From: a virus
Length of the DNA stretch: 37,458 nucleotides
IMG/VR virus record: IMGVR_UViG_3300035070_002537
Location: 1 to 37,458 of that record
Reading direction: 5' to 3' (one strand)
Part shown: piece after piece, positions 26,251 to 36,845 of the stretch
Position numbering within the stretch: position 1 is the first letter of the stretch
How the letters are laid out: every line of letters starts with the position of its first letter
Notes under the pieces: model-generated
The model's database searches: none
Seen by the model: only the letters and a program-made list of their open reading frames with translations
Told to the model about the DNA's origin: nothing
Position numbers and translations under genes: made by a program

Positions 26251-27006
26251 ATGAGCATATTGAGCTCTATTTCAAAGCCCGTTGACCGTCCGGTCATTGG
26301 CACAATTATAGGCGATGCAGGTCTAGGTAAAACCAGTCTGGCATGCACCTTTCCAAAACCCATCATTATCAGAGCAGAGGACGGTTTACAGGCGATCCCA
26401 TCCGACAAGCGACCTGATGCTTTCCCCGTCATACACAAAGAGTCCCAACTCTGGGATCAGTTGATCGCACTACTGCAGGAGCAGCACGACTATAAAACCG
26501 TTGTGATAGACTCAGTAACAGCGTTAGAGAGGCTGTTCATTCAACACGTAGTTGATAGTGATCCCAAAAACCCGCGCACGATTAACCAAGCATTAGGCGG
26601 TTATGGCGCAGGATTGGCAGCGGTTGGCGCTATGCACCAGCGCGTAAGAAAAGCGGCTGGCATGCTTAATGAGCGTAAAAACATGAACGTCGTCTTTGTC
26701 GCACACGCTGACACTGAAACAATCGAACTGCCAGATCAAGATCCGTACACACGCTACAATCTGCGGCTTGGTAAACGTAGTTCCGCGCCGTATGTCGATG
26801 ATTCTGACTTTGTGGGGTTCCTGAAACTGGAAACTTTTACAACAGGCGATGGCGAGCGCAAAAAAGCCATAAGCGATGGCACGAGGGTTTTAGTCACCTA
26901 TGCAACCGCTGCCAGCGTGAGCAAAAACCGCTACGGGATCACAGAAGACTTAATCGTTAAACAGGGCGAAAACCCACTTGTAAATTATATCGGAGCATTG
27001 AAATGA
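26251..27006 (+). CDS. Sak4-like RecA-fold ATPase (251 aa)
   Basis: This is a small P-loop ATPase with Walker A G-D-A-G-L-G-K-T (21-28) and Walker B T-V-V-I-D-S (83-88). The G-L-G-K-T form and the single-domain length fit the Sak4/AAA_24 group of phage recombination proteins, which act with an SSB to anneal or exchange single strands. It opens the rightward operon, overlaps the SSB-like gene by ATGA and is followed by a YqaJ exonuclease. Together they make a complete recombination module. Confidence 0.82.
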   Translation: MSILSSISKPVDRPVIGTIIGDAGLGKTSLACTFPKPIIIRAEDGLQAIPSDKRPDAFPVIHKESQLWDQLIALLQEQHDYKTVVIDSVTALERLFIQHVVDSDPKNPRTINQALGGYGAGLAAVGAMHQRVRKAAGMLNERKNMNVVFVAHADTETIELPDQDPYTRYNLRLGKRSSAPYVDDSDFVGFLKLETFTTGDGERKKAISDGTRVLVTYATAASVSKNRYGITEDLIVKQGENPLVNYIGALK

Positions 27007-27530
27007 GTTTTTGGAATTTATCGGACAACACTGCAATTGAAAAAACCGGCGAATTTGAGTCAGGCGGCGGCGGGTTTGAGCCGTTGCCAAATAACACAGA
27101 TTGCCTGGCGGCGGTAGATGAGGCGAAGTGGGATAGCCACGAAGGTGAAGAGTATATAAGCCTTCGTTGGGTTGTCTTGAAGCCTGACGGCTACAAGGGC
27201 CGTAAGATTTTCCAGAAGATCAAAGTCAACGAGTCCGACAGCAAAAAGGCAGACAAGGCAAAGCGAATGCTTGCCGCTATTGACACCAATGCTGGCGGTA
27301 AGCTGATGGCTAGTGGTGAAGCGCCTACAGATTTGAGTTTGATGCAGTCGCTGTCTAACAAGCCGATGGTTATCAAGCTGATGATCTGGGAAATTGACGG
27401 TAAGCGCGGGAATTGGGTTTCAAAAGTCAGTCCAAAAAAGGCAGCACCTGCACCAGCACCAGTGCCAGCACCAGTGCCGGTTAAAGAAGAAGTTATTGAA
27501 TATGATGATGATGATGATATTCCATTTTAG
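27003..27530 (+). CDS. Single-stranded-DNA-binding-like protein, DUF669 type (175 aa)
   Basis: The body (about 1-140) matches the DUF669 style of phage proteins next to Sak4 genes (Y-I-S-L-R-W-V-V-L-K-P-D-G-Y-K-G-R-K-I-F). A Pro/Ala-rich linker (A-P-A-P-A-P-V-P-A-P) leads to an acidic tip, D-D-D-D-D-I-P-F. This is the classic SSB C-terminal peptide that recruits recombination and replication partners. It is probably the phage SSB. The linker is encoded by a short near-repeat of GCACCAGCACC. Confidence 0.82.
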   Translation: MSFWNLSDNTAIEKTGEFESGGGGFEPLPNNTDCLAAVDEAKWDSHEGEEYISLRWVVLKPDGYKGRKIFQKIKVNESDSKKADKAKRMLAAIDTNAGGKLMASGEAPTDLSLMQSLSNKPMVIKLMIWEIDGKRGNWVSKVSPKKAAPAPAPVPAPVPVKEEVIEYDDDDDIPF

Positions 27531-27544
27531 TCATTAACCAATCA

Positions 27545-27563
27545 TGGCCGCAATGCGCGGCCA
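27545..27563 (+). other. Perfect hairpin before the exonuclease gene
   Basis: TGGCCGC-AATGC-GCGGCCA forms a seven-base-pair GC-rich stem between the SSB-like stop and the AGGAGA ribosome site of the next gene. No T-run follows, so it is not an obvious terminator. It may stabilise mRNA or tune translation. Confidence 0.55.
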
Positions 27564-27581
27564 ACAATCAGGAGAACAATA

Positions 27582-28451
27582 TTGGAACAAAGATCAGAGG
27601 AATGGTTTGAGGCGCGTAAGTGCCGTGTTACTGGATCTGTAGTGGGCGCTATTTTAGGCCTCAATAGCTGGATGACCGCAGACGATGTGATGCGTCAAAT
27701 GGTTAGGCAGTATCATGGTGCGGATCGTGAATTTAAGGGCAATGTTGCCACTGAATACGGCTCGTTTCACGAAAACGGCGCATGCCGTGATTATGAAATG
27801 GAGACCGGAAACAGGATTGAAGAGTGCGGGTTTTTTGTGCATGAGGACTGGCTTGGAGCGTCACCGGACGGGCTGCTGGACAACGGTGGACTGATCGAAA
27901 TTAAGTGCCCGTACTCGTTGCGTGACAACAAGCACCCTATCTTTAAAACACCAGAACAACAGCCGCACTATTACGCACAGATGCAAATTGAGATGTTTTG
28001 TGCTGGTCGCCAGTGGTGCCATTTTTACCAGTGGACACCGTTTGCAACCAGTTTGGAAACTGTGTTTAGAGATGATGAGTGGCTGATTCATAACGTGCCG
28101 ATACTGCGCAAATTTTATGATGATTATCTTGTTGAGCGTCAGCCAGTTAACGCTAAAAAACATCTTGAAGAGAAGGTGAAGCAGGTGAACACGTTACGCG
28201 CAAAAAAGCTGGTAGAGGATTATCAGAAATTAACGGAGCTGATAAAAGATGCGGAGCAGCGGAAAAAGGACGTGCTTTCAGAAATGGTAGCTATCTGCGG
28301 CGAGCGAGACAGCGAGATTCACGGTCATAAGCTGACGAAAGTTAGCAGACAAGGCGCGGTTGCTTATGCGCAAGTGGTTAAAGAGCACTGCAAAGGTGTT
28401 GATTTAGAGCAGTACCGTGGGAAGCCATCTGAGTATTGGAGGTTTAGCTAA
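27582..28451 (+). CDS. YqaJ-type viral recombinase/exonuclease (289 aa)
   Basis: The start codon is TTG at 27,582, chosen because AGGAGA lies a few bases upstream and the family opening (E-Q-R-S-E-E-W-F-E-A-R-K) begins there. Nuclease residues are visible as G-A-S-P-D-G (D96) and L-I-E-I-K (E106, K108), the lambda-exonuclease/PD-(D/E)XK pattern. The C-terminal third is a charged coiled coil. It resects double-stranded ends to give the single strands used by the Sak4 and SSB proteins. The stop overlaps the next start. Confidence 0.88.
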   Translation: MEQRSEEWFEARKCRVTGSVVGAILGLNSWMTADDVMRQMVRQYHGADREFKGNVATEYGSFHENGACRDYEMETGNRIEECGFFVHEDWLGASPDGLLDNGGLIEIKCPYSLRDNKHPIFKTPEQQPHYYAQMQIEMFCAGRQWCHFYQWTPFATSLETVFRDDEWLIHNVPILRKFYDDYLVERQPVNAKKHLEEKVKQVNTLRAKKLVEDYQKLTELIKDAEQRKKDVLSEMVAICGERDSEIHGHKLTKVSRQGAVAYAQVVKEHCKGVDLEQYRGKPSEYWRFS

Positions 28452-30187
28452 TGCTCCGCCCATACCAACAAGCCGCACACGATGCGGCTATTTCAACCAT
28501 AAAAAAATGCCTCGACCCTGTGTTGATCGAGGCGGCAACCGGCAGCGGGAAAAGCCACATCATTGCAGAGATAGCAAAAACGCTGCACAAAGTAAGCAAC
28601 GGTAAAAAAATATTATGTTTAGCACCGAGCGCCGAACTTGTTGTCCAAAACCGAGAAAAATACCTGGCAACCGGAAATCCTGCTAGTGTTTTTTCAGCGT
28701 CAGCAGGTGGCGCTTGTTTGCGTCATCCAGTGGTTTTTGGCACACCAGGCACCGTTAAAAATAAAATAGAAAGATTCGGCCCAGAGTTTTGCGCTATTGT
28801 GTTAGATGAGGCGCACAGGATAACGCCAACGGTTATTACAATCATAGAATCAATACAGTCTGTTAATCCAAACCTGCGGATTATTGGATTGTCTGCAACG
28901 CCTTACCGCCTTGGAAGCGGGTATATCTATGATTTCGATGAAAAAATGCGAAAGATGGACGAAACAATAGATCCATATTTTAAGCAGCGTGTTTATACTG
29001 TTGGTGCGCATGAGCTTATATGTCAGGGGTTTCTAACGCGTCCAGTCATCGGCGGGATAAACGCTGAAAACTACGACACAAAAAACATGCAGTTAAACAG
29101 CATGGGCAAGTTTAACCAAGCTGATATAGATCAAGCTTTTCACGGGCAGGGGCGCAAAACCGCGAAGATCATCGCGGATATTGTTGACCAGTCGCGTGAT
29201 AGGTGTGGCGTTATGATATTTGCAGCGACAATACAGCATGCTAATGAGTGCCTTGAAAGTTTGCCGCCTTCGCTGTCGGCCATTGTGACTGGTGGCACCA
29301 GCAAAAAAGAAAGGGCGGCGATACTGAAAAGATTTAAGTCACGGCAGATTAAATATCTAGTTAACGTGTCTGTGTTAACGACTGGGTTCGACGCCCCTCA
29401 TGTTGATGTTGTTGCGATACTGCGAGCCACTGAGTCTGTGGCATTACTGCAACAAATAATAGGGCGCGGGTTGCGCATAGATAGCGGTAAAACTGACTGC
29501 TTGATACTGGACTATGCGGAAAACGTTGATAGGCACTGTCCAGACGGGGATCTGTTTGACCCTGACATTACAGCAAAAAAGAAAGGTGACGGCGGCGCAC
29601 TGCCGGCTAAATGCCCAATGTGCAACTATGAAAACCTGTTTGCTGCGAGGCATAACGATGACGGGTTTGCGGTTGATGAGTTTGGCTATTTTGTTGATTT
29701 ATCAGGGCATAGAATAGAGACCGAGTTTGGTGAAATGCCAGCACACCACGGGAGGCGCTGTAATGGTGAATTACTGATAGCTGGCAGGTTTACCAGGTGC
29801 GCTTACAAATGGACGTTTAAAAAATGCCCAGAATGCGATGCTGAAAACGATATTTCGGCACGGTATTGCAGTGCGTGCAAGTGCGAAATTGTTGACCCAA
29901 ACGAAAAACTGCGGATTGAATTTAAAAAACTGAAAAAAGATCCTACAAGATTGCAGACTGACAGCGTTGTAGAGTGGTCGTACTGCGAAACAATTAGTAG
30001 AGCCGGTAACGAGGTGTTAAAAGCGACATACAGAACAGAGCACAGAACATTTGAGGTGTGGTATAACGCAAAAATGAAACGTGATCTTGATCTTTTTTTA
30101 GATGCAAAAGAGCGGGGCATAAAAACTATCACATACAAAAAAGATACTGATTCACGGTTTTATAAAATTTACGCATACAACCAATAG
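28451..30187 (+). CDS. SF2 DEAH-type helicase with zinc-ribbon tail (578 aa)
   Basis: Helicase motifs are complete: Q-like L-R-P-Y-Q, Walker A E-A-A-T-G-S-G-K-S (27-35), D-E-A-H (119-122), L-S-A-T-P (147-151), T-T-G-F-D-A-P (310-316) and Q-Q-I-I-G-R-G-L-R (334-342). After it come cysteine pairs C388/C391 and C459/C462 with C473/C476, which read as zinc ribbons. Related phage helicases act in replication or recombination. The gene shares one base with the exonuclease gene and belongs to the rightward operon. Confidence 0.9.
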   Translation: MLRPYQQAAHDAAISTIKKCLDPVLIEAATGSGKSHIIAEIAKTLHKVSNGKKILCLAPSAELVVQNREKYLATGNPASVFSASAGGACLRHPVVFGTPGTVKNKIERFGPEFCAIVLDEAHRITPTVITIIESIQSVNPNLRIIGLSATPYRLGSGYIYDFDEKMRKMDETIDPYFKQRVYTVGAHELICQGFLTRPVIGGINAENYDTKNMQLNSMGKFNQADIDQAFHGQGRKTAKIIADIVDQSRDRCGVMIFAATIQHANECLESLPPSLSAIVTGGTSKKERAAILKRFKSRQIKYLVNVSVLTTGFDAPHVDVVAILRATESVALLQQIIGRGLRIDSGKTDCLILDYAENVDRHCPDGDLFDPDITAKKKGDGGALPAKCPMCNYENLFAARHNDDGFAVDEFGYFVDLSGHRIETEFGEMPAHHGRRCNGELLIAGRFTRCAYKWTFKKCPECDAENDISARYCSACKCEIVDPNEKLRIEFKKLKKDPTRLQTDSVVEWSYCETISRAGNEVLKATYRTEHRTFEVWYNAKMKRDLDLFLDAKERGIKTITYKKDTDSRFYKIYAYNQ

Positions 30188-30197
30188 GCCGACAGAT

Positions 30198-30605
30198 GTG
30201 AAGTTTAATCCAGATATACCAGTTTATGGGGATACATCATATAGAGGGCCGTGCGCCTCTGAAACTAACGAGCAAACCACGTTTTTTAATGAGTTGCGGC
30301 GCAAGTATCCAGACATTGCGCTAATCGCTCTGCACCCTCGTAATGAGGGTAAACGCACGTATCAACAAGCGATGAGGCATAAAGCTGAAGGCATGGCCGC
30401 CGGTGCCAGTGACATTATTATTTGTGGTTCGCCAACGTTTGTTTGTGAGCTAAAGCGGCAGGATCACACCAAAAGCAAATGGCAGGACAGCCAGGAAGAT
30501 TTCTTAACGACGGCTAAAAGCTACGGCGCTTTTGTGTGTGTAGCACTTGGTTATAAAGCAGCGTTAGAGGCGTTAGAAAGATGGCTAGAGTTACAGATCA
30601 GGTGA
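30198..30605 (+). CDS. VRR-NUC domain nuclease (135 aa)
   Basis: This small PD-(D/E)XK nuclease of the VRR-NUC group has an N-terminal E-x-N-E-Q-T-T-F-F helix, then H-P-R-N-E-G-K-R, G-A-S-D-I-I-I (catalytic Asp) and F-V-C-E-L-K-R (catalytic E-x-K). VRR-NUC proteins in phages are structure-specific endonucleases, possibly resolvases. The start codon is GTG at 30,198; no better ATG is in frame. It follows the helicase by ten bases and overlaps the next gene by 25. Confidence 0.85.
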   Translation: MKFNPDIPVYGDTSYRGPCASETNEQTTFFNELRRKYPDIALIALHPRNEGKRTYQQAMRHKAEGMAAGASDIIICGSPTFVCELKRQDHTKSKWQDSQEDFLTTAKSYGAFVCVALGYKAALEALERWLELQIR

Positions 30606-30887: not shown

Positions 30888-31313
30888 ATGAAAATACAAG
30901 AAACGGATTGGATTGAGTGGGACGCATCGGGAAAAAAATGCGGAGACCTTCCACAAGGCATTACTGATGGCACGATGGTTAAGGTCGCATTTGATAGCGG
31001 TTCTACTGGCGATATATTGCAGGCCGGTGAGTTGTATTGGGGTGATTCTCTGGCTGGGCCTATCAAAAAATACAGGATTTGCACCTTAGTCCCAGACACA
31101 CCAGCGAACACAAACAAATACAGCCGCATGATTGCGCCAGGCGTATATGTTGATGTGTACGATGTACTAAAAGCTTTTGGCGTTAAGTGTCCAGCATTAC
31201 AACACTTGATTAAAAAAGCTTTGGCAGCTGGAAATAGAGGCCATAAAGATTTGTTGACCGACTTGGACGACATTATAGACAGCGCACACAGGGCGAAGGA
31301 GCTTGCAAAGTGA
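30888..31313 (+). CDS. Conserved phage protein upstream of the helicase-methylase (141 aa)
   Basis: The first half is beta-rich (W-I-E-W-D; G-T-M-V-K-V-A-F-D-S-G). The second half is helical with V-Y-D-V-L-K-A-F-G-V-K-C-P-A-L-Q-H-L-I-K-K and L-D-D-I-I-D-S-A-H-R-A-K-E-L. The C-P-A-L-Q-H-x-x-K-K-x-L-x-x-G segment recurs in small early proteins of many phages, with unknown function. It is the first gene from promoter 3, has a GGAG ribosome site and overlaps the next start by ATGA. Confidence 0.65.
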   Translation: MKIQETDWIEWDASGKKCGDLPQGITDGTMVKVAFDSGSTGDILQAGELYWGDSLAGPIKKYRICTLVPDTPANTNKYSRMIAPGVYVDVYDVLKAFGVKCPALQHLIKKALAAGNRGHKDLLTDLDDIIDSAHRAKELAK

Positions 31314-33511
31314 ATTATGAATCTTTCATAAAAACAAAAGAGTTTATACCGGTTGTTTCTGGGTTTCAGGTTGATGTTTCTACACTGAATAGCAATCTGT
31401 TTGATTTTCAGATTGCCATAGTTGAATGGGCATTAAAGCGAGGGCGAGCCGCATTATTTGCAAACACAGGGCTAGGAAAAACAATAATGCAAATGTCATG
31501 GGCTGATGCTGTTGTAAACAAAACTGATGATCCAGTGCTGGTTGCCGCGCCGTTAGCGGTTGCGAAACAGTCAGTAAAAGAGGCTGCAAAGTTTGGCATA
31601 GAAGTTGAATATGTTAGAGATCATCCAAGCGTTTTAAAAAGCAAAATTTATATCACAAACTATGAAATGCTTGATAATTTCAACATGGATGACTTTTCTG
31701 GGATTGTATTAGATGAGTCTAGCATCATTAAAAACAGGGATGGAAAGACTAGAAAAGCAATCATCGATAGTTGTTTGAATGTGCCTTACAAGCTTTCATG
31801 CACTGCAACGCCAAGCCCTAACGATTACATGGAGCTAGGCAACCAGTGCGAGTTTTTAGGCATTATGTCTATGACTGAAATGTTAGCCATGTTTTTTACG
31901 CACGATGGCGGTGAAACCAGTAAGTGGCGATTAAAAGGGCATGGTGCGCGTAAATTTTGGGAATGGATGTCAACATGGGCGATCACGATAACAAATCCTA
32001 GCGATATAGGTTTTGATGGTTCGCGATATGTGCTAGACCCATATTTGATGCACGAGCATCAAGTGAAATCGCCAGTTTCTGACAATCAGTTATTTGCTGA
32101 TATTGCTCAAACACTAACGGAAAGACGCGCAGCAAAAAAAGCAACCGTAGATGCAAGGGTTGATGAAGTTGCTAAGTTGTGCAATGAGTCAGACGAACAA
32201 TGGATAGTGTGGTGCCACACGAACGATGAATCGGCCATGCTATCTAAATCAATTATTGGAGCGGTTGAGGTTAAAGGTTCTGATTCTATTGAGCATAAAG
32301 AGTCTGCGATGCTTGGATTTTCTGACAATAATTTTAAGGTTTTAGTAAGCAAGCCTTCTATATGCGGATTTGGCATGAACTGGCAGCACTGCCGTAATAT
32401 GGCTTTTGTTGGGCTTGATGACAGCTACGAACAGATGTACCAGGCTATCAGAAGATGCTGGAGATTCGGTCAGGACAAGGTTGTTAATGTTCACATCATA
32501 ACCGCCGAATCATTGGGAGCAATAAAACAGAACATCGAACGAAAGGAAAAACAAATGGAACAAATGCAGATAGCTATGGTTGATCATATGCGAGAGTCGA
32601 TGCAGAAAGAAATAAAAAGCGCAGGGATTGAGAAAACAGATTACAACCGGAGAGTTGAATTAGGTGCTGATTTTGAAATACATAACGCTGACTGCGTGCA
32701 TTTAGCTAGTGAAATAGAATCTAATACCGTTGGGTATACTATTTTCAGCCCGCCATTTGCATCATTGTACACGTACAGCAATAGCGATTATGACATGGGT
32801 AATGTCAAAGATGATGAAGAGTTTTATAAGCAGTTTAGGTTTCTTGTCAAAGAAATGCTAAGAATAACCAAGCCTGGGCGATTGCTTTCTTTTCATTGCA
32901 TGAACCTTCCGACAAGCAAACAAAATAACGGGTTTATAGGTATTCGTGATTTCAGGGGTGAGCTAATCAGAATGTTTGTGGATGAGGGGTGGATATATCA
33001 TTCAGAGGTGTGCATCTGGAAAGACCCGGTAACAGCAATGCAACGAACAAAGGCTCTTGGCTTGCTGCACAAAACGATTAGGAAAGACAGTTCAATGAGT
33101 CGCCAGGGGATTCCTGACTTTTTAGTGACAATGCGCAAGCCTGGCGACAATGACGACCCTATCAGTCATACGCATGATGAGTTTCCTGTTAGCCTGTGGC
33201 AAAAATACGCCAGCCCTGTCTGGATGGACATTAACCCATCCAGGACTCTAAATTACAGAGATGGTCGAGATGATGACGATGAGCGCCACATTTGCCCATT
33301 GCAACTTGATGTGATCGAACGAGGGTTAGAATTGTGGAGCAAGCCTGGTGATCTTGTTTTTAGCCCATTTACAGGGATAGGGTCAGAGGGTTATTGCGCG
33401 GTAAAGGCAGGCAGAAGGTTTATCGGATCAGAACTAAAACCAAGTTATTTTGATTTGGCAATAAAAAACATTCAATCAGCATACAACACAACAATGGATC
33501 TATTCGCATGA
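31310..33511 (+). CDS. SNF2-like helicase fused to a DNA methyltransferase (733 aa)
   Basis: The N-terminal two thirds form an SF2 ATPase: Walker A A-N-T-G-L-G-K-T (51-58), D-E-S-S (135-138), T-A-T-P (165-168) and Q-A-I-R-R-C-W-R-F-G-Q (378-388). A charged linker helix (about 405-450) leads to a methyltransferase. Its catalytic S-P-P-F (480-483) comes before the cofactor motif F-S-P-F-T-G-I-G-S-E-G (684-694), the permuted order of beta-class enzymes. S-P-P-x motifs are frequent in N4-cytosine methylases, but the target base is not certain. It may protect phage DNA from restriction or mark replicated DNA. It overlaps both neighbours by ATGA. Confidence 0.85.
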   Translation: MNYESFIKTKEFIPVVSGFQVDVSTLNSNLFDFQIAIVEWALKRGRAALFANTGLGKTIMQMSWADAVVNKTDDPVLVAAPLAVAKQSVKEAAKFGIEVEYVRDHPSVLKSKIYITNYEMLDNFNMDDFSGIVLDESSIIKNRDGKTRKAIIDSCLNVPYKLSCTATPSPNDYMELGNQCEFLGIMSMTEMLAMFFTHDGGETSKWRLKGHGARKFWEWMSTWAITITNPSDIGFDGSRYVLDPYLMHEHQVKSPVSDNQLFADIAQTLTERRAAKKATVDARVDEVAKLCNESDEQWIVWCHTNDESAMLSKSIIGAVEVKGSDSIEHKESAMLGFSDNNFKVLVSKPSICGFGMNWQHCRNMAFVGLDDSYEQMYQAIRRCWRFGQDKVVNVHIITAESLGAIKQNIERKEKQMEQMQIAMVDHMRESMQKEIKSAGIEKTDYNRRVELGADFEIHNADCVHLASEIESNTVGYTIFSPPFASLYTYSNSDYDMGNVKDDEEFYKQFRFLVKEMLRITKPGRLLSFHCMNLPTSKQNNGFIGIRDFRGELIRMFVDEGWIYHSEVCIWKDPVTAMQRTKALGLLHKTIRKDSSMSRQGIPDFLVTMRKPGDNDDPISHTHDEFPVSLWQKYASPVWMDINPSRTLNYRDGRDDDDERHICPLQLDVIERGLELWSKPGDLVFSPFTGIGSEGYCAVKAGRRFIGSELKPSYFDLAIKNIQSAYNTTMDLFA

Positions 33512-34494
33512 AAATTACAGTAGCAAAAAACAGCATAATGCCAATTTTGAAAAAAGCGGCAAAAGTCTCTAACGCAAAATCAACTGTTATGATTTTGGGC
33601 CATGTTGCAATCAAATCGTCTGGCGGAATTTTGAATATTACCGCAAACGACAGCAGGAAAACCTATTCAGAATCTTGTGAATGTTCTGGCGATGACTTTG
33701 CTATGACTCTTGACTTGCAAAAACTGGTCAGGGCTGTAAACGCATTTAAATCTGGCGATATTGACATTTATGATGACGGACATGTAAACCAGGGGCGCTC
33801 AAAAATACAGATTGACCATCTCCCTTACGATCATTTTCCAATGCCAAATTACGAAAAAGCAGAAAAAACATCGTTAAAAAGTTCTGATTTAAATGCTGCT
33901 ATCGCTGTTGTGTCGCATGCTATGGCGGTTAAGGATGTTAGGCCGATGCTTAATGGTATACACCTTACCAGTGGTTATGTTGTTGCAACAGACGGGCATA
34001 GACTTGCGTATTTGAAATCAGACTATGACGGTATTGACTTGATCATCCCATCAGATGCAGCTAATAGCATAAACATAGATGGTGATGTTTATGTTTCTGA
34101 AAATCAGCTAATTGTTAGAAATTATAATTCTGTGTTTTCGACTGGGCTGCTAACGTCCAGATACGTTGATTGGAGGAGGGTGCTGCCATCTGGTAACGAA
34201 GATTCAATGTTTGTTTTGAGAAAGTCATTATTAGATGCGCTTGATATGTGCTCAATAAGTGAATCAAAAGTTTTGTTCACGATAAAAAATGGAGATCTTA
34301 AATTATCAAACAACGGATCAGAGGTTTTTGTCGAGATTGATTCAAAAATTGATATGCAAATTGGATTTAATATTCAATATTTTCAGGATGCATTGAGAAT
34401 GATTGAAAAAGAAACAATAGAAATAAAGTTTTTTGGAGAATCAAAACAGATTTTGATTGAAGATTCTTTTGTAATAATGCCAATGAGGGTTTAA
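33508..34494 (+). CDS. DNA sliding clamp, DnaN-like beta subunit (328 aa)
   Basis: The protein follows the beta-clamp plan. Domain 1 includes V-M-I-L-G-H-V-A-I-K and an F-A-M-T-L-D-L-Q-K-L strand. The most telling segments are D-V-R-P-M-L-N-G-I-H-L, V-V-A-T-D-G-H-R-L-A-Y and I-I-P-S-D-A-A, which mark the middle domain. The C-terminus, S-F-V-I-M-P-M-R-V, matches the conserved last strand. It is shorter than the bacterial clamp (about 366 residues). As no polymerase is seen, it probably tethers host polymerase III, or replaces the host clamp to favour phage DNA. It is coupled to the helicase-methylase gene by ATGA. Confidence 0.85.
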   Translation: MKITVAKNSIMPILKKAAKVSNAKSTVMILGHVAIKSSGGILNITANDSRKTYSESCECSGDDFAMTLDLQKLVRAVNAFKSGDIDIYDDGHVNQGRSKIQIDHLPYDHFPMPNYEKAEKTSLKSSDLNAAIAVVSHAMAVKDVRPMLNGIHLTSGYVVATDGHRLAYLKSDYDGIDLIIPSDAANSINIDGDVYVSENQLIVRNYNSVFSTGLLTSRYVDWRRVLPSGNEDSMFVLRKSLLDALDMCSISESKVLFTIKNGDLKLSNNGSEVFVEIDSKIDMQIGFNIQYFQDALRMIEKETIEIKFFGESKQILIEDSFVIMPMRV

Positions 34495-34496
34495 CA

Positions 34497-34961
34497 ATGC
34501 ACAAAATAACGATGATACCGAAGCAAAGCGTGTTAAATGCCAGAATGATCAAATTCAAAAAACTACACGAACTGGCAAAGATTCCTGCTAGGGCAACCGC
34601 CGGCAGTGCAGGCTTTGACTTGTACGCCATATCGCACTGCATTATCTGGCCTTTTGCACAGGTTAAAATAGCCACCGGGATCGCTACTGCTATCCCGGAA
34701 GGATATGCAGGATTTGTCTGGCCGCGATCTGGAATGGCTGTTAAACACGGTATAAATGTGCATGCTGGGCTGATTGATAGCGACTACAGAGGTGAAGTGC
34801 ACGTTTGCCTGATCAACCACGGTGATAAGATGGTTGAGATTTACCCGGGTGATAGGATTGCTCAGCTAGTCGTTAGTGCTGTGATGACAGAGGCAGTAGA
34901 AGTTGATGAGCTGGATGACACTGAAAGGGGCATCGGCGGTTTTGGGAGTACTGGCGCATGA
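34497..34961 (+). CDS. dut: dUTP diphosphatase (154 aa)
   Basis: All five dUTPase motifs are intact: A-G-S-A-G-F-D-L (35-42), P-R-S-G-M-A (76-81), G-L-I-D-S-D-Y-R-G (91-99), P-G-D-R-I-A-Q-L (117-124) and R-G-I-G-G-F-G-S-T-G (144-153). The trimeric enzyme turns dUTP into dUMP, which lowers uracil in new DNA and feeds dTTP synthesis. It starts three bases after the clamp gene and overlaps the next gene by ATGA. The length is normal for bacterial and phage enzymes. Confidence 0.95.
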   Translation: MHKITMIPKQSVLNARMIKFKKLHELAKIPARATAGSAGFDLYAISHCIIWPFAQVKIATGIATAIPEGYAGFVWPRSGMAVKHGINVHAGLIDSDYRGEVHVCLINHGDKMVEIYPGDRIAQLVVSAVMTEAVEVDELDDTERGIGGFGSTGA

Positions 34962-36596: not shown

Positions 36597-36682
36597 TGTC
36601 GGGAAAGAGAGTAGGTATGAGCTGGATGCCACTGCCGTCAATTGAGGATGCGAATGATGCAATGTCTGCCAACACTGGATAG
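36596..36682 (+). pseudogene. 5' part of a probable frameshifted gene
   Basis: The frame starts at ATG 36,596 (or ATG 36,617 behind GTAGGT) and gives W-M-P-L-P-S-I-E-D-A-N-D-A-M-S-A-N-T-G before a TAG at 36,680-36,682. The other frame continues directly with R-Y-Y-H-H-V-R-M-A-R-I. A W-x-x-L-P-S-I-E-D-A start joined to such a C-terminal part looks like one small phage protein split by one base. It could be a mutation, an assembly error or a programmed +1 shift at GGA-TAG. Confidence 0.45.
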
Positions 36683-36845
36683 ATACTATCATCACGTGCG
36701 CATGGCTCGAATCTATCTACATGAGGCGAGCCGGACGATACACCGCGACTGGGCAATAACACTGCTGGCGTGGGCAGGCGAGCGCCGCCGACGATCCATG
36801 CAATTGAGTCCAGCGCCGCAGATCGGGCAGATTGATTTATTTTGA
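36648..36845 (+). CDS. 3' part of the probable frameshifted gene, or a separate small protein (up to 65 aa)
   Basis: The frame has possible starts at TTG 36,642, ATG 36,648 and ATG 36,654, none with a good ribosome site. It encodes a basic helical protein with H-H-V-R-M-A-R-I-Y-L-H-E-A, L-L-A-W-A-G-E-R-R-R-R-S and a terminal G-Q-I-D-L-F. That last motif resembles clamp-binding peptides (Q-x-D-L-F), which is notable because a clamp gene is present. Read with the upstream fragment it would be one protein of about 75-82 residues. Confidence 0.5.
   Translation: MRMMQCLPTLDRYYHHVRMARIYLHEASRTIHRDWAITLLAWAGERRRRSMQLSPAPQIGQIDLF

Follow-up and report, generated by a model that had tools for sequence, protein, structure and literature searches.

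The window analysed here is the full 37,458 nucleotides of IMG/VR virus record IMGVR_UViG_3300035070_002537 (positions 1 to 37,458), and all features described in it lie on the plus strand. An uninterrupted open reading frame with a GTG start, at 31310..33511, encodes a 733-aa helicase–methyltransferase fusion with matches in Pfam, PHROG, and NCBIfam. The helicase portion comprises an SNF2 ATPase N-lobe (residues 33-190, 31406..31879; Pfam SNF2-rel_dom, 5e-9) carrying Walker A ANTGLGKT, motif II LDESS, and motif III SCTATP, followed by a helicase C-lobe (residues 286-387, 32165..32470; Pfam Helicase_C, 3.6e-9) with motif VI QAIRRCWRFGQ, which makes the motif set complete. The C-terminal part is a permuted beta-class N4/N6 DNA methyltransferase (MTase) domain (residues 478-718, 32741..33463; Pfam N6_N4_Mtase, 1.2e-13), which also matches PDB 2zie at 3.5e-13. 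All three Pfam matches exceed their cut-offs.

The MTase was considered permuted because its catalytic motif IV, S480-P-P-F483 (32747..32758), precedes motif I, F687-T-G-I-G691. This motif order, the SPPF and FxGxG motifs themselves, and the fold of the Thermus MTase TTHA0409 are all those of a beta-class amino-MTase. In an alignment of 67 homologues that are 29-78% identical to the window protein, most active-site residues of both enzymes were invariant or nearly so, including the N-lobe motifs, motif VI residues Q378, R382, R385, F386, and Q388 (invariant), and MTase motifs IV and I (at least 90% conserved at most positions). An AlphaFold2 model of the whole protein (pLDDT 85.5, pTM 0.75) contained both folds, and Foldseek connected it to the SNF2 remodellers CHD1, INO80, and ISW1 (probability 1.00) and to TTHA0409 (TM 0.81-0.83 over the TTHA0409 chain). 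A preliminary description made from the sequence had proposed a complete SNF2-like ATPase joined to a permuted MTase, with S-P-P-F before F-x-G-x-G, and had suggested predicting the structure of the two domains together; domain matches, conserved motifs, and the predicted structure all agree with this proposal. The base predicted to be modified is probably N4-cytosine, since SPP[Y] has been reported as the catalytic motif of m4C enzymes (PMC10855626), and possibly N6-adenine. Pfam, PHROG, and NCBIfam scans of the fusion found no nuclease domain, its ResIII match reflecting the ATPase fold only, and a type I/III restriction-modification enzyme was thus ruled out, as the helicase has no linked endonuclease domain.

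Genomic context of the fusion gene

The fusion gene shares an ATGA overlap at 33508..33511, exactly as first described, with a gene at 33508..34494 whose 328-aa product is a true three-domain DnaN beta sliding clamp. This product scores 149.2 bits against TIGR00663 (cut-off 137.65), and its structural model (pLDDT 92.7) matches solved beta clamps at Z about 36, the top ones superposing on 324-328 residues at rmsd 1.6-1.8. One of the listed clamps is in complex with the peptide Ac-QADLF. Most canonical residues of the peptide-binding pocket are kept, namely (in E. coli numbering) R152, L155, T172, G174, H175, R176, L177, R246, V247, V360, M362, P363, M364, and R365, with valine replacing P242. 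The next downstream gene encodes a dUTPase (34497..34961; Pfam dUTPase, 3.7e-37). Directly upstream, the stop of a gene at 30888-31313 overlaps the fusion start (GTGA), and its 141-aa product resembles the C-terminal part of several PHROG families of unknown function, phrog_2452 among them.

Further upstream, PHROG and Pfam matches delineate a recombination module (26251..30605) including a Sak4-like annealing protein, a single-stranded DNA-binding protein (SSB), a YqaJ/RecE-like exonuclease, a ResIII helicase, and a nuclease-like phrog_824 protein, and homologues of the fusion repeatedly have exonuclease, RecT/RecA-like, and SSB genes nearby. These neighbours would suit a recombination or fork-repair factor, whose SNF2 motor would remodel forks or joint molecules as a component of the Sak4/SSB/exonuclease module, with its position set by the clamp and methylation either marking strands or being secondary; a role in recombination has also been proposed for jumbo-phage Snf2 helicases (PMC7824862). 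We nevertheless consider this function improbable, as helicase and MTase remain together even when split into separate genes, and the catalytic motif of the MTase reaches 90% conservation or more within the clade that shares the window's SPPF motif, which suggests that methylation itself is under selection.

A widespread phage helicase–methylase family

Any impression that the fusion is unusual did not withstand database searches. A tblastn search with the fusion protein yielded 352 phage records, 305 of them at ≥80% coverage with the two domains either fused or in two adjacent genes, and each of two queries against viral contigs recovered more than 500 candidate relatives. Hence rarity was dismissed, and given so many full-length homologues, the open reading frame is not a chance one. 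The window protein is homologous from end to end (SNF2, then N6_N4 MTase) to a phage “DNA helicase/methylase” family corresponding to phrog_16 with phrog_67, named examples of which include Mycobacterium and Arthrobacter phages (Violac, Auxilium), Flavobacterium FCV/FCL-2, and Synechococcus S-CBS3. Actinobacteriophage annotations already read “DNA helicase/methylase”, and the coupling of SNF2 and MTase in phages, in a single polypeptide or in gene neighbourhoods, was published in 2017 as a methylase–helicase dyad (PMC5512222). The fusion itself is therefore not new, but part of a widespread and already annotated family.

Members of this family may differ from the window protein. Often the domains are encoded by two neighbouring genes, and a clade of long proteins (~840-880 aa; L093-L095, L098, and L101-L318, in Mycobacterium, Pseudomonas Hollowayvirus, and Flavobacterium FCL-2 phages) has S-I-P-F rather than S-P-P-F at catalytic motif IV, together with a strongly conserved C-terminal tail xP[T/S/D]LFD. 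Separately, Mycobacterium phage Job42 (L097, 3989-7501) encodes a 1170-residue member annotated as “anaerobic ribonucleoside reductase large subunit”. Its surplus ~330 residues are probably an intein, so this annotation is likely wrong; inteins have been reported in the N6_N4 MTases of cluster F phages (PMC5050341). In four other loci, a lone family MTase ending in an LF tail lies near a ResIII-type helicase related to the one at 28451-30187 of the window, immediately upstream of it in L416, L422, and L427 and downstream in L431.

The combination of a SWI2/SNF2 ATPase with a DNA MTase in a mobile element is also found in P1 DarB and the related polyvalent dyads (PMC5512222), which suggests that the fusion might be a virion protein injected with the DNA to counter type I restriction. 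This function appears extremely unlikely. The virion-borne DarB has a gamma-class NPP(Y/F) MTase located N-terminal to its helicase (PMC5512222), whereas the 733-aa window protein has a beta-class SPPF MTase at its C-terminus and is encoded among replication and recombination genes, adjoining both the recombination module and the clamp gene. Membership in the DarB family was rejected based on this opposite domain order and different MTase class, even if the fusion may work on a similar principle. The preliminary description had already separated the two by size and gene location.

A clamp-binding-like motif at the MTase C-terminus

The fusion protein ends in T-M-D-L-F-A, beyond the last helix of the MTase domain. 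Within this otherwise little conserved segment, L731 and F732 stand out with 90% conservation or more in the 67 homologues, and conservation, clade consensus, and shuffle tests together delineate a clamp-binding-like motif T-M-D-L-F at residues 728-732 (33491..33505). In the AlphaFold2 model, the preceding helix ends at residue 728 and pLDDT averages 52 over residues 731-733, in line with a free linear motif. To survey such tails more broadly, ~400 loci were gathered and their MTase proteins reduced to representatives. Among 72 representatives below 70% identity, 50 tails contained [SDTGENQ][LM]F, as opposed to 4.3 on average and never more than 11 across 1000 shuffles, and the same pattern occurred in the last 28 residues of only 79 out of 2194 other ORFs from these loci.

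Bacterial clamp-binding motifs follow QL(S/D)LF and are C-terminal in several clamp partners (PMC9690074); more generally, they are defined as Q-aliphatic-x-[L/M][F/L], or the same with one more residue before the last, and are sometimes C-terminal (PMC11139829). When tails of the SPPF clade, which includes the window, were aligned on L-F, Q occupied position -3 in 28 of 69 sequences (background 4%) and T did so in another 14, while 58 displayed D, T, G, or S at position -1. In sequence, the tail of this clade converges on Qx[D/T/G/S]LF, i.e., on the bacterial clamp-binding motif, which it fits apart from a relaxed position 2. A pentapeptide clamp-motif pattern was likewise detected in 36 of 92 tails (mean of 2.5 and maximum of 10 in 2000 shuffles). 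Even among the 23 tails lacking LF, 9 still matched the penta- or hexapeptide pattern (1.06 expected), with endings that include LL and LW (QLSLL, QASLL, and QISLW). Since leucine is a known substitute for phenylalanine in clamp motifs (PMC11139829), these endings are more readily explained by a clamp motif than by an LF with a fixed structural role. Taken together, this suggests that the SPPF-clade tail is probably a genuine clamp-binding motif. The window's own copy fits the definition at positions 2, 4, and 5 but has T rather than Q at position 1. This glutamine is important for affinity yet dispensable, and its loss weakens known peptides (PMC11139829), so that binding by the window's Q-less copy is plausible rather than secure.

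The tail motif was present in 61 of the 71 MTase domains included in a tree. It is retained by MTases split from their helicase (L035, L080, L086, L383) and by lone MTases of the family near a different helicase (DDLF, QTSLF), and from these sequences the tail goes with the MTase rather than with the fusion. We also considered that Q might be lost where a phage has its own clamp. This idea was dropped, as the window, L001, and L058 lack Q while three other tails from clamp-encoding phages keep it (L086 QTELF, L327 QMSLF, and L383 QGNLF). Elsewhere in the window, a small ORF of 67 aa without PHROG match (36642-36845) has GQIDLF as its very last residues, which is a textbook example of the clamp-binding motif. 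Its product might be another partner of the clamp in this phage, or the ORF might be a chance one.

The main alternative to clamp binding is that the protein is an ordinary helicase–methylase protecting against restriction, with an LF tail that packs on the protein itself, on a dimer, or on another partner, and a clamp neighbour resulting from coincidental clustering of replication genes. The offset of the tail is fairly constant, mostly 14-18 residues, hence common descent or a structural role could account for part of its conservation, and Q is absent both from the window tail and from the long SIPF clade, in which all 47 representatives carry a Q-less xP[T/S/D]LF tail. Phages with multiple MTases are moreover thought to use them to overcome several host restriction systems (PMC7824862). 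Conversely, convergence on the clamp consensus with Q at the right spacing, replacement of LF by LL or LW, and low model confidence at the tail count against this alternative, as does the absence of the motif from a small control of three plasmid-borne SPPY MTases of the ordinary kind, whose annotation is that of restriction-modification enzymes.

Clamp genes near relatives and a proposed mechanism

The distribution of clamp genes provided evidence in both directions. An HMM derived from the clamps of these loci identified clamps within a few kb of the family that formed 16 clusters at <35% identity. In 8 of these clusters the clamp gene overlaps the family gene or is separated from it by no more than about 60 bp, before or after it (window/L001, L013, L058, L086, L148, L309, L382, and L383); the C-terminus of the clamp ORF is atypical in L148. 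The genes of Alteromonas phage XX1924 follow the order MTase (ending in QTELF), clamp, and helicase, each overlapping or abutting the next, and in L383 the MTase stop overlaps the clamp start, with QGNLF located a few residues before that stop. In the Auxilium phage, the clamp gene lies two genes downstream of the helicase/methylase. A contig from a Clostridia genome (L382, 4934-9475) displays an overlapping cluster of clamp, SNF2 helicase, beta-class MTase, and C5-cytosine MTase genes.

Such adjacency involving eight dissimilar clamp clusters argues against coincidental clustering. No clamp was found in 33 control loci, a sample too small to be informative. Across entire records, however, a clamp was detected in only 3 of 40 close IMG/VR relatives versus 1 of 32 controls, which is not a significant enrichment over this small control set, and known phages exist that encode a clamp with no helicase–MTase gene nearby. 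Co-occurrence with a clamp as a general rule is thus unsupported, and clamp adjacency is a recurrent arrangement rather than a rule. The link between methylation and a sliding clamp proposed in the preliminary description hence gains from the conserved tail and the eight abutting clusters, and is limited by the scarcity of clamps in close relatives. Weighing all these observations, we consider a family of ordinary helicase–methylases with no clamp contact rather unlikely, at roughly one chance in four.

Because most relatives have no clamp gene, any general link to a clamp must usually involve the clamp of the host. This raises the question of whether the protein could instead serve host takeover by filling the pocket of the host clamp and thereby stopping the host from replicating, as the toxin SocB is known to compete for this pocket (PMC9690074). 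We regard this as very improbable, since such a task would not call for a large enzyme whose two active sites are both conserved, and the window phage encodes its own clamp next door.

We instead propose, at slightly better than even odds, that a clamp-tethered and translocase-driven MTase acts on newly replicated phage DNA and pre-empts host restriction. The SNF2 domain, as a double-strand DNA translocase, would carry the MTase along DNA, and TMDLF, the short and flexible motif at the C-terminus that varies on Qx[D/S/G/T]LF, would tether it to a beta sliding clamp. The partner would be the phage's own clamp, from the overlapping next gene, in the window phage, and the host clamp in most relatives. 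Clamps remaining on freshly copied DNA would recruit the fusion protein, so that methylation of new phage genomes would follow the fork and precede any action of restriction or modification-sensing systems of the host. The tail motif, which the preliminary description did not mention, is the new element of this analysis and the strongest support for a connection to replication. One caution comes from DnmA of B. subtilis, whose replisome-proximal location was explained by the unmethylated substrate available there (PMC9973331): an MTase can sit near the replisome without any clamp tether because this is where unmethylated sites are found.

The proposed arrangement would resemble eukaryotic DNMT1–PCNA, in which a sliding-clamp motif brings a DNA MTase to newly made DNA (PMC9690074). 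Binding has been shown in that system and would be predicted here, where MTase class and clamp family are unrelated to the eukaryotic ones and a translocase, which DNMT1–PCNA lacks, is included. The available part of a report on the plasmid MTases M.EcoGIX and M.BceJIII describes another physical coupling of mobile-element MTases to replication, with DNA polymerase I and with single-stranded DNA as the substrate modified, and mentions neither an SNF2 domain nor a clamp-binding motif of their own (PMC7736820). Searches of the open-access literature found no paper matching a phage MTase with a clamp-binding motif and no clamp link for the helicase/methylase family, and the word methyltransferase is absent from a 2024 review of the beta clamp (PMC11139829).

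Overall, the pairing of helicase and methylase is common in phages, yet came without a tested mechanism in the literature searched, and the tail motif allows what had been a vague argument from gene neighbourhood to be tested by mutating two residues. It is nearly an even question whether many tailed phages encode a clamp-riding, motor-driven MTase as a prokaryotic counterpart of DNMT1–PCNA, with the host clamp as the default partner and a phage clamp repeatedly paired with it within one operon. If the conserved tail does bind clamps, it would explain how phage DNA can be methylated soon after it is copied and why some phages carry a clamp gene beside the methylase, and DNA MTases would join the list of beta-clamp partners.
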